Below, piece by piece: positions 701 through 51,178 of a stretch of DNA of 53,288 nucleotides (position 1 is its first letter; every line of letters begins with the position of its first letter). The DNA lies in IMG/VR virus record IMGVR_UViG_3300044499_000082, positions 1 to 53,288 of that record; one strand, 5' to 3'. Origin of the DNA: a virus. The notes under the pieces were generated by a model. The model saw only the letters and a list, made by a program, of their open reading frames with translations, searched no databases and was not told the origin of the DNA. Position numbers and translations under genes: made by a program.

Positions 701-922
701 CTAGATGACCAGGCGCAGCGGGATCGCTGCGATTTCCGGCGACGGCGGACGGTGTTCCTGCAGCTCGCGTTCAAAGTCGGCTTGATCTTCGTCCCGTTCG
801 ACGCCGATGCGGGTGATGTAGCAATGGCAGCGAATGCCGCTATCGGTTTTCCCCTCCCAGATCCTGGCCGGCAGGCCGTTGAGCCATACCTCTTTGGTCG
901 TGCTTTCGATGGTGATTCTCAT
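701..922 (-). CDS. small hypothetical phage protein
   Basis: A 73-residue protein starts with ATG at 922, behind AGGGAG eight bases upstream and overlapping the ParB-gene stop by four bases (translational coupling). It begins MRITIESTTKEVWLNG and reads like the small beta-rich proteins of phage early regions that form one sheet with an acidic C-terminal helix. Function is unknown. Its placement next to the ParB-domain and replication genes suggests early expression. Confidence 0.65.
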   Translation of the reverse strand: MRITIESTTKEVWLNGLPARIWEGKTDSGIRCHCYITRIGVERDEDQADFERELQEHRPPSPEIAAIPLRLVI

Positions 923-2796
923 CGGTGCGTCTCCCTCTTCTTAGACGCTGGCTTCTTCTTCGATGCTTTTTTCTTCGCCTTCGTGGCCATCGCTTTCCCC
1001 TCCTTTCCTTCGGATGTGATTCGATTCAACTTGTGACCCATGGCGCTGCATGACGTGCAGAGACCTCGATTGGTTTGCTCTTCAAGTTCGGTCCACGAGC
1101 AGCCCATGTTCGTGCCCTCGACCTCTACGACGCAAGCCTTCCCTTCCGTGCAGCCGCAATGAATGCAGGTCGGCTCTTTGAACGTTCCACCATGCAGGGC
1201 GTGAACTACGGCGCCGCCCTTTTTCTCGCTCGCCTTTGCAGACGCCTGCGGTTTTTCCTTCGGCATAAACTCCTTGAGAATCGCGGGCACGTCGACGCCG
1301 AATTGCTTCATGCGCTTGGAAAAGTCGTCGATCTCCCCGCCCCTGTCGTTGGATTCCATCCGCGCCAAGAACATGGAGAGCACGAGCACGCGCCCGAGCG
1401 CCTCGGCGGACTTAGGTTCACCCATGAACTTGATCGCTTTCTTGAAATCATTCCTACTGATTTCAGAATAGAATTCCTCGAAGAATTCATCGACGACGGA
1501 CATCAGGTTGACGAGCTTCGCGGTCTTGAACTTGGCCGCGCACGCCTCGATGATCTTCGGCTGCGCCTTGTTCCAGGCGTCTTGTTGGGTCTGACGCACC
1601 AACTCCTCGTGCTTCTGCCGCGCCGCTTCGGCCTGACGTTTCAGGACCGCGGCCGGCGATTCGCCCTTTTTCGGTTCAGCGCTCGCCGGCGCACTATAGC
1701 TCGCCCGCATCCGCCGATACTCCGCGCGCTCTTTGCCCCAGTGGGGCTTGCAGTCCTTATTGGCGCAGACGACGAGCTTCTCGCCCCTTTGGGCTCCGAG
1801 CACGATCACGCCCAGCGCGCTCTTGTCGCATTGCGGGTGTCCCTTGGTGCCGTCGGCGAGCTTCCAGGTCCTGCCGGTGAAGATCCGCCCGGTCAATCCC
1901 TCCTTGGCGGCCGGCTGCACGTAGATTTCGTGCGTGATCTGGATGATCTTGGGCCGCTTCGGCGATTTCGCGAACGCCTCTTCGACGGCGGCCGCGGTTT
2001 CGGGGAACAGGTCGGGAACGATCGGCGCCTTGTAGTCCAGGCGGACGTGGGTGGCGATCCAGTGGTCGAACTCCCGCACCGAGGTGTGTTTGACTTCCGA
2101 GTACACTGCGTCGAATTCTTCTACCTTCGTTAGTTTCTTGCTTCCCCGCTTTTCCATATCTGCGGCCGATTCCCCGTCCATGCCCGAGTCGTCGAACAGC
2201 GTGTGCTCGACCGTAAACAGGCCGCCCGCGTCGGGATCGATCGCCCGCTTCTGATCGTCGGGGTACAACCGCGCCAGCAAGATCGCGTGGCCTGCGGTCA
2301 TCTTGCCGGCGAGCAACAGTCGCTTGGCCTCCGGGATAAGTTCAAGGAGCTTCACGCGGTCGTACACGAATTTTTCGGACTGACCGATCTTATGCGCCAG
2401 GCTCTTGACGTCGTAGGCGTCTTTGAAGCCAAGCAGCGCCTTGTAGCCCGCCGCCTGTTCGAGCGGGTTTGTGTCCTCGCTCTGGTCATTCTCTATGACC
2501 ATGATTTCGAGGACCTGTTGATCGCCAAGATCCCGAACGATGGTCGGCAGCTCAGCCAGCTCGGCGATCCCCGCGGCGCGATAGCGCCGGCTGCCGGCGA
2601 CGATCTCAAAGTCGCCAGGCTTTGATCCCCGGTGCGACGCTATGCGCACCACGATCGGCTGGATGATGCCAACACCCTTGATCGAGTCGGCCAGCTCCTG
2701 GAGCTTCTTCTGATCGTAATGTTTTCTCGGATTGAGCGGCGATTCGAGCAATCTTTCTCGCCGAACGAACTGTAATGCGTTTTCTTGTGGTTCCAT
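919..2796 (-). CDS. ParB/Spo0J-domain protein with C-terminal zinc motifs
   Basis: A 625-residue protein. Residues about 10-110 form a ParB N-terminal (ParBc) domain: NPRKHYD, GIIQPIVVR and the GSRRYRAA box, which in ParB proteins binds DNA and CTP. An HTH-rich section follows (SLAHKIGQSEKFVYDRVKLL). Further on come CANKDCKPHWG and a C-terminal Cys cluster (CIHCGC, then CTSC), both probable zinc sites, and a Lys-rich tail. ParB-family proteins act in partition, gene regulation or as nucleases. No ParA lies beside it, so partition is unproven and a phage regulatory or DNA-processing role is equally likely. AGGGAG precedes the ATG. The replication-initiator-like gene is immediately upstream. 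Confidence 0.85.
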   Translation of the reverse strand: MEPQENALQFVRRERLLESPLNPRKHYDQKKLQELADSIKGVGIIQPIVVRIASHRGSKPGDFEIVAGSRRYRAAGIAELAELPTIVRDLGDQQVLEIMVIENDQSEDTNPLEQAAGYKALLGFKDAYDVKSLAHKIGQSEKFVYDRVKLLELIPEAKRLLLAGKMTAGHAILLARLYPDDQKRAIDPDAGGLFTVEHTLFDDSGMDGESAADMEKRGSKKLTKVEEFDAVYSEVKHTSVREFDHWIATHVRLDYKAPIVPDLFPETAAAVEEAFAKSPKRPKIIQITHEIYVQPAAKEGLTGRIFTGRTWKLADGTKGHPQCDKSALGVIVLGAQRGEKLVVCANKDCKPHWGKERAEYRRMRASYSAPASAEPKKGESPAAVLKRQAEAARQKHEELVRQTQQDAWNKAQPKIIEACAAKFKTAKLVNLMSVVDEFFEEFYSEISRNDFKKAIKFMGEPKSAEALGRVLVLSMFLARMESNDRGGEIDDFSKRMKQFGVDVPAILKEFMPKEKPQASAKASEKKGGAVVHALHGGTFKEPTCIHCGCTEGKACVVEVEGTNMGCSWTELEEQTNRGLCTSCSAMGHKLNRITSEGKEGKAMATKAKKKASKKKPASKKRETHR

Positions 2797-2808: not shown

Positions 2809-3531
2809 CTAATGTGTTTTTCGAGACTGACTCATCATGTGATCCGGCCAGGATGCAAAAAACTGTCGGGCCTTGGACGGAGCCCCTTCGAAGCCCCTCC
2901 GAAGCCCCTCCCCTTCCTCTTCTCTCCCCAGACCCCTCTTAACTCTTTCAGGAACAGGATCAGGATCAGGACCAAGGCCCCTTCGGAGCCCCTTCGAAGC
3001 CCCTTGCTTATCCACAGGTTTATCCACAGAAGGACCGTCTATAAGGGGCTCTGAAGCCCCTTCCGACCCCTCCGAAGCCCCTCCGGTGCCCCTTCGGAGC
3101 CCCTTCGAAGCCCCATCGGAGGGGCTTAGGTGGAAGAGCTTCCCGTAGCGGTCCAAGAACTGTTTTTTGAACTCGACATGAAGGGTCTGATCGAGTTGCC
3201 GCTGCATCGCGTGGACCCGGTTGTCTTTGGGATTGAGAGCAGGCGCGACCTGAGTGGCCGCGTAACTGGGAATGTAAATCGTTTTTGCCGGCTCATCGTA
3301 AAAAGCGAATTCTGACTTTCTCAGAACTTCAAAGGCTTCACGGATCAACTCTTCGGAAAAGCCGGTGTCGTAGTGAACGTATTCGATCGGGAGATGATAG
3401 ATCCCGATCATATTGGAATGCGGGCTACTCATCAGGTAAGCAATCATCGCGATCGCGAGAGGGTTTCCCTTGATCAGCGCTCCCATGTCGTCCGGCCAAA
3501 AACTCGTTGGAATGGTGCCGTAACTCCGCAT
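2809..3531 (-). CDS. replication-initiator-like protein (HTH) carrying origin repeats
   Basis: A 240-residue protein. Residues 1-135 look like a winged-helix phage replication protein (YGTIPTSFW, then IGIYHLPIEYVHYDTGFSEE and IPSYAATQV). The segment after about residue 138 is low-complexity, with recurrent GASKGLRRG and GASEG pieces followed by acidic and proline runs. The DNA beneath this part is an array of an 11-bp unit plus two DnaA boxes, so the peptide repeats are a by-product of a DNA-level repeat. An initiator whose own gene holds the origin is the arrangement of lambda O. No helicase or primase gene is recognisable nearby. The start at 3531 follows a terminator, so expression probably has its own promoter. 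The initiator role is inferred. Confidence 0.65.
   Translation of the reverse strand: MRSYGTIPTSFWPDDMGALIKGNPLAIAMIAYLMSSPHSNMIGIYHLPIEYVHYDTGFSEELIREAFEVLRKSEFAFYDEPAKTIYIPSYAATQVAPALNPKDNRVHAMQRQLDQTLHVEFKKQFLDRYGKLFHLSPSDGASKGLRRGTGGASEGSEGASEPLIDGPSVDKPVDKQGASKGLRRGLGPDPDPVPERVKRGLGREEEGEGLRRGFEGAPSKARQFFASWPDHMMSQSRKTH
2879..3126 (-). repeat. iteron-like array of an 11-bp unit (candidate replication origin)
   Basis: On the plus strand AGCCCCT recurs at 2881, 2892, 2903, 2987, 2998, 3055, 3076 and 3098. Near-copies lie at 2976, 3065, 3087 and 3109, and inverted copies at 3044 and 3120. Within blocks the step is 11 bp, close to one helical turn, and 11 is not a multiple of three, so the coding frame rotates while the DNA unit is kept. 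That points to selection on DNA. The array sits inside the initiator-like gene. Confidence 0.7.
3008..3028 (+). other. two tandem perfect DnaA boxes
   Basis: TTATCCACA occurs at 3008-3016 and again at 3020-3028, a 12-bp step. Both match the bacterial DnaA box consensus exactly and sit between the two halves of the 11-bp repeat array. Host DnaA binding here would fit theta-type initiation. The boxes encode VDKPVDK in the overlapping gene. Confidence 0.75.
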
Positions 3532-6397: not shown

Positions 6398-6792
6398 CGA
6401 TATCTCCTCAGTCGATGCAGATGTCCGGGCGGTGCATCCAGTAATGATTGCAATAGCGGAGGTACTCCAGCCGCGATTGAAACTGAGACTGGCGCACACG
6501 ATACGGCTGGGCCTGCGGCAGAGCGCAAGCGCTCAGAGCCAAAACACACAAAGCGAAAAACATCGATCTCTTCATGATTCTTCCTCCTCTGCCCTGTGGA
6601 TACTCCACGGGGCGGCTGTTCGAGAAAACGCAGCCCATCGAAGATGACTCGCCAGGAAACCTCGCTGGATTCTTTCTCCGACGTGTAGATGCCTTCCCGG
6701 GCGATGCGCGTGAGAAGATCTTCGACTGTCCTGGTGTCCGCGCCTGCCTGTGCTCTGGCAGACAGGCCGGCCTGATCGGTTTCGTTATTCAT
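6370..6792 (-). CDS. hypothetical protein; only the N-terminal half is credible
   Basis: A 140-codon frame starts at ATG 6792, overlapping the stop of the HTH gene by four bases. The first 60 or so residues (MNNETDQAGLSARAQ, then TVEDLLTRIAREGIYTSEKE) look like real protein. The rest overlaps the lipoprotein gene out of frame and has Arg/Pro/Leu-rich, shadow-like composition. The change occurs at the GTGGAGTA stem-loop at 6591-6613. In the gene at 12679-12882 a similar stem-loop ends the protein. I infer that the original C-terminus was replaced by read-through of this element. Confidence 0.4.
   Translation of the reverse strand: MNNETDQAGLSARAQAGADTRTVEDLLTRIAREGIYTSEKESSEVSWRVIFDGLRFLEQPPRGVSTGQRRKNHEEIDVFRFVCFGSERLRSAAGPAVSCAPVSVSIAAGVPPLLQSLLDAPPGHLHRLRRYRWINFQLKI
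6408..6575 (-). CDS. small phage lipoprotein
   Basis: A 55-residue protein starting at ATG 6575 behind GGAGGAAG. The N-terminus MKRSMFFALCVLALSAC is a complete type II signal peptide with lipobox LSAC, so the mature protein would be a lipid-anchored peptide of about 38 residues with several aromatic residues. Phages carry such small lipoproteins as outer spanins or as superinfection and cell-surface modifiers. No inner spanin is adjacent, so no specific role is claimed. It lies in a different frame inside the longer open frame 6370-6792. Confidence 0.6.
   Translation of the reverse strand: MKRSMFFALCVLALSACALPQAQPYRVRQSQFQSRLEYLRYCNHYWMHRPDICID
6591..6613 (-). repeat. GTGGAGTA-type stem-loop, copy 1 (short form)
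   Basis: A 23-base inverted repeat whose plus-strand arms are GCCCTGTGGA and TCCACGGGGC (overlapping at the centre). On the minus strand it sits directly before the SD of the lipoprotein gene. It shares its arms with longer copies at 12694-12727 and 13584-13617. Confidence 0.6.
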
Positions 6793-7028
6793 TCTCTTCG
6801 CTCCTCCAGTTCCGCAGTCTGTGTGTCATCTGCGCGTAGCTCTTCAATGGTAATTTCGAGCGCGCGAGCGAGCCGTTTTTCTAATCGCGCGCTGGTCATC
6901 TTGCGGTTTATAAAAAGAGCCATTGCGGCGCTCGATACGTGGCATGCACGCGCTAACTGCGCCTGAGTGATGCTTTTTGCCTTCAATCTCGTCTTGACTT
7001 CATCTGGCGTCATATGCATAAGTCCCAT
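6789..7028 (-). CDS. HTH (Cro/CI-type) transcriptional regulator
   Basis: A 79-residue protein with a clear helix-turn-helix (SITQAQLARACHVSSAAMALFINRK) in the Cro/CI or XRE style. ATGs at 7028, 7019 and 7013 are possible; none has a strong ribosome site. It is transcribed away from the plus-strand regulator at 7100, and the 70 bases between them hold overlapping palindromes. The pair is laid out like a phage repressor/antirepressor switch. It heads the minus-strand set of small early genes, coupled by a four-base overlap to the next one. Confidence 0.75.
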   Translation of the reverse strand: MGLMHMTPDEVKTRLKAKSITQAQLARACHVSSAAMALFINRKMTSARLEKRLARALEITIEELRADDTQTAELEERRE

Positions 7029-10929: not shown

Positions 10930-12141
10930 TTAATTATCGCCTTCGCGCGCATCCTTCACCACATCCGGCAGCGCCAGGAATTCCATCCCTTCGATCTCCT
11001 GGAGCGTCTTGCCGGCGATCCCCTGCAGGTCGCCGTACATGCCGACGGTCGCCATCATCACCCGGTCAATCTGCTCGTCGCGCTTGGCCCATTGCTTCAT
11101 GATCGCTTTCCGCTCGCGGTCGAGATCCTCCTTCATCGAGGTGAACGCCTCGACGATCGCCTGCACGCGCTGGCGAAAGCGCGGGCCGGTGAGATAGCCG
11201 TAGACCATTTCCATTTTCGTCTGTTGGCCTTCGGACGATTGCCGCGCGGCGGCAAGCTCGATGAGGCTCTGGCGCAATGTCATAGCCACGGCCAGGGCGG
11301 TGCGCGAATGGGTCACATAAACGCCGTCGATCAGATCGAACGTGTCTATTTCCTTCGGCAACGCCTGGCTGACAATGACCGCGATCTCCGCCTTCGCCGC
11401 GCGTTGATCGGCGCGGAGCTTGGGCAGCCAGTCGTCATTCCAGTGCTTGGTCCGTTTGGACTCCCAGACGATCGTGCCGCAGGCCTGGCCGAAGGGGCCC
11501 ATCACGCGCTGCGAGATGTCGGCGCCGAACTCTCCCTTACCCACCGGTGTGATCTCATCCTGGGGAAAGCGCGCGCGCAGCGTAGCTTCCAGTTCCAGTT
11601 CCTGGACTTCACCCTGGAGCTGCTGGGATCCCTGTTCCGCGCGGCGCTTCAAGTCCTCGATCTGGCTTTGCATGGCCGTGATCGTGTGCTCTTTTTCCAG
11701 GACCTTGAGCTTCATCTCCTCCTCGGCGTCCCGTTTCGCCCGGTCGCGCGCTGCGCCGATATCCGACTGCACCCGTTTTTCGATCGTTAGCTCCAGCTCG
11801 CGGCGGGCATCATCGAGATCGCGCTCCTTGCGCAGCATCTCGGCCTGCTGTTTCTGCGCTTCGGCGAGCTTGGCCTCCCGCTCCTGAAGGAGCCGGCGGA
11901 GTTCGGCGGCATCTTGTTTTTGCCGCTGGAGATCATCGTCGACTATTTGTCTGGCTCTGGCGCCGGCCTCGGCCTCGATCCTCTTGGTCTCTTGCTCGAG
12001 CTTGCGCGCGGCCTCCTGGTCTTTTTGCTGCATGCGCGATTCGAAATCGCGCCGCACGGCATCGATCATCGGCGCGGCGAGGGACTCTGTCAGTTTGATT
12101 TCCGTCTTGCATTTCGGACAGACGATCGTCGGTTCAGCCAT
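10930..12141 (-). CDS. DUF2130 protein (zinc ribbon, coiled coil, nuclease-like C-domain)
   Basis: A 403-residue protein. CPKCKTEI at residues 8-15 is half a zinc ribbon. Residues about 40-190 are continuous charged coiled coil. The C-terminal domain contains GEFGADISQRVMG and GTIVWESKRTKHWNDDWLPK, then DFESR-type acidic and lysine pairs that in DUF2130 proteins suggest a restriction-endonuclease-like fold, reminiscent of RmuC. DUF2130 is usually chromosomal, sometimes in mobile elements; its role is undefined, with DNA repair or defence proposed. Length fits the family. A six-bp hairpin overlaps its stop codon. It lies between the regulatory island and a set of tiny genes. Confidence 0.8.
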   Translation of the reverse strand: MAEPTIVCPKCKTEIKLTESLAAPMIDAVRRDFESRMQQKDQEAARKLEQETKRIEAEAGARARQIVDDDLQRQKQDAAELRRLLQEREAKLAEAQKQQAEMLRKERDLDDARRELELTIEKRVQSDIGAARDRAKRDAEEEMKLKVLEKEHTITAMQSQIEDLKRRAEQGSQQLQGEVQELELEATLRARFPQDEITPVGKGEFGADISQRVMGPFGQACGTIVWESKRTKHWNDDWLPKLRADQRAAKAEIAVIVSQALPKEIDTFDLIDGVYVTHSRTALAVAMTLRQSLIELAAARQSSEGQQTKMEMVYGYLTGPRFRQRVQAIVEAFTSMKEDLDRERKAIMKQWAKRDEQIDRVMMATVGMYGDLQGIAGKTLQEIEGMEFLALPDVVKDAREGDN

Positions 12142-50002: not shown

Positions 50003-51178
50003 TCACCGTCGCCGTGTCCCCTTCTTGCTGATTTTGGTCGCTGCTTTGAGCCGCGCGATCATCGGCGCCATGCCGTCATGTCGTATGTATTTGGCGTAAT
50101 CTTTCTCGATCATCTCCAGCGACGTGCCGCAGTAATCAGCGACAAATTTCCCGCTGCAGCCCGCGCTCAACATCGCGGTGATGAACGTGTGCTTGGTGCA
50201 GTAAAATTTTCTCGGCCGGATCTTCAGCGCCGAAAGGACGCCATACCAATAGCGTTTGCGAATTTCGTTCGGATCGATCGGCCCGCCTTTGCTGTTGGTG
50301 AAGAAATATTCCTCGTCCGAGCCGTGCAGCCGCGCCGGCATCGCTGTCAACACGTCGAGCAAATTCGGCAACAGCTCTTTCGTGCGCGTGCTGCCGGGCG
50401 TCTTGGGTGCATTCTCTTCGCCCAGGTGGCGCGACCGGCGAATGGTGAACGTGCCGGAGGTCAGATCCACGTCGCCGAGTCGGAGCGCCGCGGCTTCCGA
50501 CGGCCGCGCGCCGGTCCAAAAAAGAAAATACATCGGCTCGTAGAGCCGCGGATAGCTCTTCCGAAACTTCTCGAGGATGCGATCGCGCTCCTCTTCGGTG
50601 AACGGATCGGGCGGCGGGACCAGGCGGTCCGGCCATTCGAGGACCTCGAAGGGATTGTTCGCCGGCGCGCCACCGGCCCAGACGCTGCGGTACATGGCCC
50701 TGAGCGAACCGTCGATGACGTTGCGGCAGGTTTTGACCTTGAGCTCTAGCTCATCGATCATCCACGTCCTGAACTTCACCAGGTGCTTGTATTGCAGGCT
50801 TTCGACGGGTGTGACCTCTTTGCCGAGCTTGGGCAGGATGTAAGCCTTGAAGTGCTGGCGATAGTCGCGCGCCTGGCTCTTGCGAACCAGCGGCGGTTTC
50901 TTGTCTTCCACCCAGTCGAGATAGAACGCTTCGAGGGACACGCTATTGGATGTCTTAGCATGTTCCGATCTCGTCGCGCGATTGCCTTCGGGAAACCATT
51001 TCGAGTAATCGAACGTGCCGTGCTCCACCTCGAAGTTCATCACCAGACATTTCTTCTCGTACTGGACGCGATTGTCGGGCGTGTCCTTCTCGCCGGTACC
51101 CTCCCAGTACTGCTCGCCGTCGATATCGCCGCGGATTGCGAGCGTGCCGTGGCGAGTTTTGGTCACTCGAAAAGCCAT
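50003..51178 (-). CDS. int: tyrosine recombinase (phage integrase)
   Basis: A 391-residue protein. An N-terminal arm-binding region is followed by a SAM-like core-binding domain (about 80-165) and the catalytic domain: WTGARPSEAAALRLGDVDLT (Arg225), KFYCTKHTFITAMLSAG (Lys at 329 in the HxxR-box Arg position, with Tyr in the His position) and MIEKDYAKY (Tyr361). The HxxR box is thus a YxxK variant, which I have seen in some phage integrases. It ends within the last AGGTCACCGT repeat. Targets tRNA-Glu through the adjacent att core. Confidence 0.9.
   Translation of the reverse strand: MAFRVTKTRHGTLAIRGDIDGEQYWEGTGEKDTPDNRVQYEKKCLVMNFEVEHGTFDYSKWFPEGNRATRSEHAKTSNSVSLEAFYLDWVEDKKPPLVRKSQARDYRQHFKAYILPKLGKEVTPVESLQYKHLVKFRTWMIDELELKVKTCRNVIDGSLRAMYRSVWAGGAPANNPFEVLEWPDRLVPPPDPFTEEERDRILEKFRKSYPRLYEPMYFLFWTGARPSEAAALRLGDVDLTSGTFTIRRSRHLGEENAPKTPGSTRTKELLPNLLDVLTAMPARLHGSDEEYFFTNSKGGPIDPNEIRKRYWYGVLSALKIRPRKFYCTKHTFITAMLSAGCSGKFVADYCGTSLEMIEKDYAKYIRHDGMAPMIARLKAATKISKKGTRRR

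Follow-up and report, generated by a model that had tools for sequence, protein, structure and literature searches.

The window, which is the whole 53,288-bp stretch of viral DNA analysed here, contains a gene on the minus strand (2809–3531) in which an array of short repeats encodes the C-terminal half of the protein, and this raises the question of whether the repeats serve the protein or the DNA that encodes it. The first-pass annotation proposed a replication origin embedded in an initiator-like gene, and the evidence below points the same way, since the repeat unit is retained in relatives and the host gene encodes a winged-helix protein of initiator type. The array is very probably the initiator-binding part of a phage replication origin, embedded in the initiator gene itself, in the stretch that encodes the linker.

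The array (2879–3128, described on the plus strand) is built of thirteen 11-bp units with the consensus GAAG-CCC/GGG-CTTC, arranged in three blocks. Block I (2879–2911) has three units, which start at 2879, 2890 and 2901, and is followed by a tract of 86% pyrimidine (2912–2947) and by a 6-bp array, (TCAGGA)x4, at 2948–2971; the tract and the 6-bp array had escaped the first-pass annotation. Block II (2974–3006) has three units, starting at 2974, 2985 and 2996. Two perfect DnaA boxes, TTATCCACA, are found at 3008–3016 and 3020–3028, and their starts are 12 bp apart. Block III (3042–3128) has seven units, which start at 3042, 3053, 3074, 3085, 3096, 3107 and 3118, and includes in addition a damaged 10-bp unit near 3064. 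These positions agree with the earlier description of about a dozen units in blocks with two DnaA boxes in the middle, while the inverted copies that it placed at the flanks (the units at 3042 and 3118) border block III only and not the array as a whole.

The window has 16 exact copies of the core AGCCCCT, a count reached by none of 100 shuffles, and 10 of these copies lie within 2881–3126. The 300-nt linker has 10 exact AGCCCCT/AGGGGCT cores. Dinucleotide shuffling and synonymous recoding of its peptide, with 2000 trials each, gave no more than 3 and never reproduced the array. The self-identity of the linker at lag 11 is 0.46, compared with maxima of 0.36 in the dinucleotide shuffles and 0.42 in the synonymous recodings, and the chance of at least two DnaA boxes in 248 bp is about 1.6e-7 under a first-order Markov model. 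The array thus exceeds chance and also exceeds the demands of its peptide. Searches for near-identical DNA in phages returned matches of 22–30 nt fragments only. Cumulative GC skew, which had been suggested as a check, was rejected as support, because the array itself creates the minimum at 3117, which shifts to 1903 once the array is masked; the window has no significant turning point, and its skew amplitude is equalled in 176 of 1000 block shuffles.

The protein encoded by this gene, which has 240 residues, matches the PHROGs family phrog_1701, named “DnaD-like helicase loader” (E=4.9e-27, residues 1–154), and weakly a “replisome organizer” family. No Pfam family, Phage_rep_O and RepA_N included, matches it at E up to 1. 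With the phrog_1701 members of Klebsiella, E. coli and Acinetobacter prophages it shares the homologous N-terminal domain (residues 1–150), the 11-bp units in the linker (13 in the window) and a strand-biased 6-bp array beside them (2948–2971 in the window). The AlphaFold2 model has a winged-helix domain at about residues 17–130, with pLDDT above 90 over most of residues 20–130, which contains helices 49–56 and 60–72, the second being the predicted recognition helix (encoded at 3316–3354, minus strand), and wing strands 77–79 and 84–86. The array is encoded in a disordered linker at about residues 140–207 (pLDDT mostly below 60), and the protein ends in a short helical C-terminus, lacking the more extended C-terminal region found in most relatives. 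Structural neighbours of the modelled domain include phage replisome organizers and the N-terminal domains of the RepA_N initiators 4pql, 5kbj and 4pt7 (Z 6.8–6.9), which are tied with CRP-family and generic wHTH proteins. A Foldseek search of the PDB gave no match at E up to 0.001, the sequence search of solved structures gave none that was convincing, and exact peptide patterns found no close relatives of the protein.

The window has the setting of a temperate tailed phage, with an integrase gene (50,003–51,178), portal, capsid and tail genes, and a Cro/C1-type HTH gene (6,789–7,028). Downstream of the initiator, annotated relatives encode either a DnaC-like loader or a primase/helicase; the scan of window ORFs recognised neither a helicase nor a loader gene. 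A ParB-like protein of 625 residues (919–2796, minus strand) is encoded directly downstream of the initiator, and in Klebsiella phage MK422450 a gene of the ParB family lies immediately upstream of that for a related initiator. The scanned window ORFs included no ParA. This phage genome also encodes a DUF2130 protein (10930–12141, minus strand, E=4.7e-77).

Relatives were collected by protein similarity only and reduced to 55 non-redundant members; loci L089–L206, which came from a 17-mer DNA scan and were therefore selected through the motif itself, are excluded from every conservation count. The first-pass annotation had asked whether relatives keep the protein and lose the repeats, and 45 of the 55 retain a linker unit of the same AAGCCCCTT type, while five more, all of one clade, have the sister type AAACCCTTT (GAAA-GGG-TTTC). 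A further scan of this clade added 17 distinct members with the same layout. Pooled linker units (124) give the consensus GAAG-NNN-CTTC with the centre CCC in 102 and GGG in 22, and they are spaced by 11 bp in the great majority of relatives, mostly with 2–4 units each. Both orientations occur and, since the arms are palindromic, they differ in the central triplet only, which switches the encoded peptide between EAPSKPL and EGASKGL. Six orientation changes are placed on the conserved-domain tree, at least two of them forced by well-supported branches, and the sister pair L002/L004 differs in orientation. Relatives at about 25–40% protein identity therefore retain the unit and its step but have different linker peptides according to orientation, as expected from the earlier proposal that selection acts on the DNA: the DNA unit is kept and the peptide is not. 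Two nonsense-truncated members with arrays past the stop codon, L225 and L257, were dropped as proof, because the reading frame continues beyond it and the genes may have decayed. Just past its stop codon, L257 has 11-bp units GATA-NNN-TA(T/C)C, a further unit type of the same arm-centre-arm design, followed by a CAGAGA array. In L255 (Marichromatium), a 12-bp unit, AAGGGTTCGGCA, is repeated head to tail about eight times in the linker. Perfect DnaA boxes are not shared by the family as a whole, and among the relatives inspected they are found in two type-3 members only, L252 and L254, at gene nt 250 in both and also at 395 in L252.

The 6-bp array is likewise conserved at the DNA level. Of 56 linkers, 51 have it, whereas two control stretches taken from these genes yielded 1 and 0 of 56. 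Its commonest form is CAGGAN, read as QEQE, and its frame and strand vary among relatives, so that it encodes QE, TG, SV, EK or PD; frame-shifted arrays are read as TGTGTE or, from CAGTAT, as SVSV. In the window the array lies on the strand opposite to that of most relatives and for this reason encodes PDPDPVP instead of QEQEQ.

Most relatives have two more units, 11 bp apart, in the recognition-helix codons themselves (EGASKGL, residues 61–67). The codon choice is frozen there: GAA in 40 of 41, GGG in 37 of 39, GCT in 37 of 42, AAG in 33 of 33, GGG in 31 of 37 and CTT in 39 of 43, unlike conserved codons elsewhere, which vary widely. For glycine, GGG is used in 48 of 52 codons of the helix and in 56 of 246 elsewhere in the same genes (p 1e-21, an optimistic value, as are all these codon p-values, because related genes were treated as independent), and leucine is CTT in 26 of 28 compared with 36 of 276. 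The serine codon on the junction between the two helix units is free in its synonymous choice. Helix and linker units are of the same type in all 44 members where both are present (40 of type 4 and four of type 3), and in distant members, whose unit sequences are different, helix and linker again have DNA in common, 20 bp in L258 and 12 bp, inverted, in L255. The helix units are absent in the window and in L020, L058, L074, L222 and L224, so they are not essential in every lineage and do not define the family.

These observations make it an evenly balanced proposition that in this large phage initiator family the recognition-helix codons hold part of the origin, and that the helix and linker clusters may be bridged by the initiator. 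If so, the helix-coding DNA is a pair of initiator-binding units, type-matched to linker units some 250 bp away, which would tie protein recognition and site sequence together in one stretch of DNA, and bridging of the two clusters, by looping or handcuffing, could control initiation. The synonymous freeze is a clean example of codons for a DNA-binding domain being constrained by a function of the DNA itself, and is relevant to how evolving initiators and their sites stay matched.

As an embedded origin, the array would work as follows. Each turn of DNA would present one quasi-palindromic 11-bp unit to a protomer of the winged-helix initiator, and the bound protomers would form a regular origin complex. 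The strand-biased 6-bp array, by its place beside the iterons, is a natural candidate for the site of melting or single-strand capture, after which a loader or the host would supply the helicase. The two DnaA boxes of the window probably recruit host DnaA for opening or loading, as in iteron plasmids, and may in this way compensate for a helicase or loader gene, given that the ORF scan recognised neither. The window is an expanded variant, in which the helix units are lost, the linker array is enlarged and DnaA boxes are added; within phrog_1701 it is set apart by these features (13 linker units, where its relatives mostly have 2–4) and by its short C-terminus, and so displays how the origin varies within one family. 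The embedded-origin reading would place the predicted origin of a widespread phage initiator family, which has no Pfam model, at a precise spot, and provides a candidate 11-bp origin unit together with its partner 6-bp array.

Other explanations account for parts of this pattern. The linker peptide itself could be selected as a flexible charged spacer, with DNA repeats produced by slippage; linkers are of low complexity in all relatives, and the 6-bp arrays grow and shrink in a slippage-like manner, with QEQE stretches of very different lengths. This is highly improbable, however, because synonymous recoding never yields the array, changes of orientation alter the peptide while the DNA unit stays, the helix codons are frozen at synonymous sites and neither the frame nor the strand in which the 6-bp array is read is constant. 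Gene conversion, by which linker units would be copies of the helix codons kept alike without any binding function, fits the perfect match of helix and linker types and the sharing of DNA in distant members (L258 and L255), but is just as improbable: in the window and five relatives the linker units have retained their sequence despite the loss of the helix units, and conversion would not maintain CCC-type linker units against GGG-type helix units, a combination seen in most relatives.

An operator for self-regulation is unlikely, though less so than these two. Here the initiator would bind units in its own gene and block transcription or translation of the operon, and replication would start elsewhere; autoregulation is common among initiators, and units within the coding region, those in the helix codons included, could be roadblocks. 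A large array with an attached 6-bp array and DnaA boxes nevertheless exceeds the needs of an operator, where phage initiators with embedded arrays have been studied functionally the arrays are origins (PMC8965321, PMC6316719, PMC7466680), and operator and origin functions can coexist.

By analogy with characterised systems, the best reading is that the window array works like the origins of lambda O, SPP1 gp38, TP901-1 ORF13 and pSK41 RepA. In lambda, the origin lies inside the initiator gene with iterons in mid-gene, and in lambda and Stx phages extra iterons lengthen the O protein (PMC7466680). The description of the window as lambda-O-like holds for this layout, with iterons in the middle of an initiator gene, but not for homology: the protein belongs to a different family by sequence and has no Phage_rep_O match in Pfam. 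The window iterons, of 11 bp, are also shorter than those of lambda, no AT-rich unwinding tract adjoins the array (its lowest-GC segment, which holds the DnaA boxes, has 46% GC), and lambda ori differs further from the DnaA boxes within the window array and from the recognition-helix units of the window's relatives. The organizers of SPP1 (gp38, oriL; PMC6316719) and of TP901-1 (ORF13) and Tuc2009 (PMC8965321) bind direct repeats in their own genes, which are phage origins; these are by description alike, but the hosts differ and sequence homology to the window initiator was not detected. The pSK41 rep gene has its origin centrally within the gene (PMC5703833), and RepA_N initiators (pSK41, pTZ2162 and PLE RepA) have a DnaD-like wHTH N-terminal domain and semi-palindromic direct repeats (PMC5703833, PMC7145576). 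The window units differ from the latter in a GC centre in place of an A-tract and in their 11-bp step, and PF06970 (RepA_N) has no match in the window protein or in six relatives. With DnaA-assisted iteron replicons the window shares DnaA boxes placed beside iterons. As far as the open-access literature shows, in which no description of the 11-bp unit or of the helix-codon units was found, the unit, its use in two orientations, the family-wide 6-bp partner array and the units in helix codons are new.

The ydaU gene of the E. coli K-12 Rac prophage was considered as a studied member of the family and rejected, its protein being of a different family (DUF1376), which makes oriJ an analogy only. 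The ydaU linker (L339, 5012–5077) has three exact copies of TGTTCAAACA, two direct and one inverted, within 66 bp, and these repeats are a candidate place for the iterons of the Rac origin oriJ.
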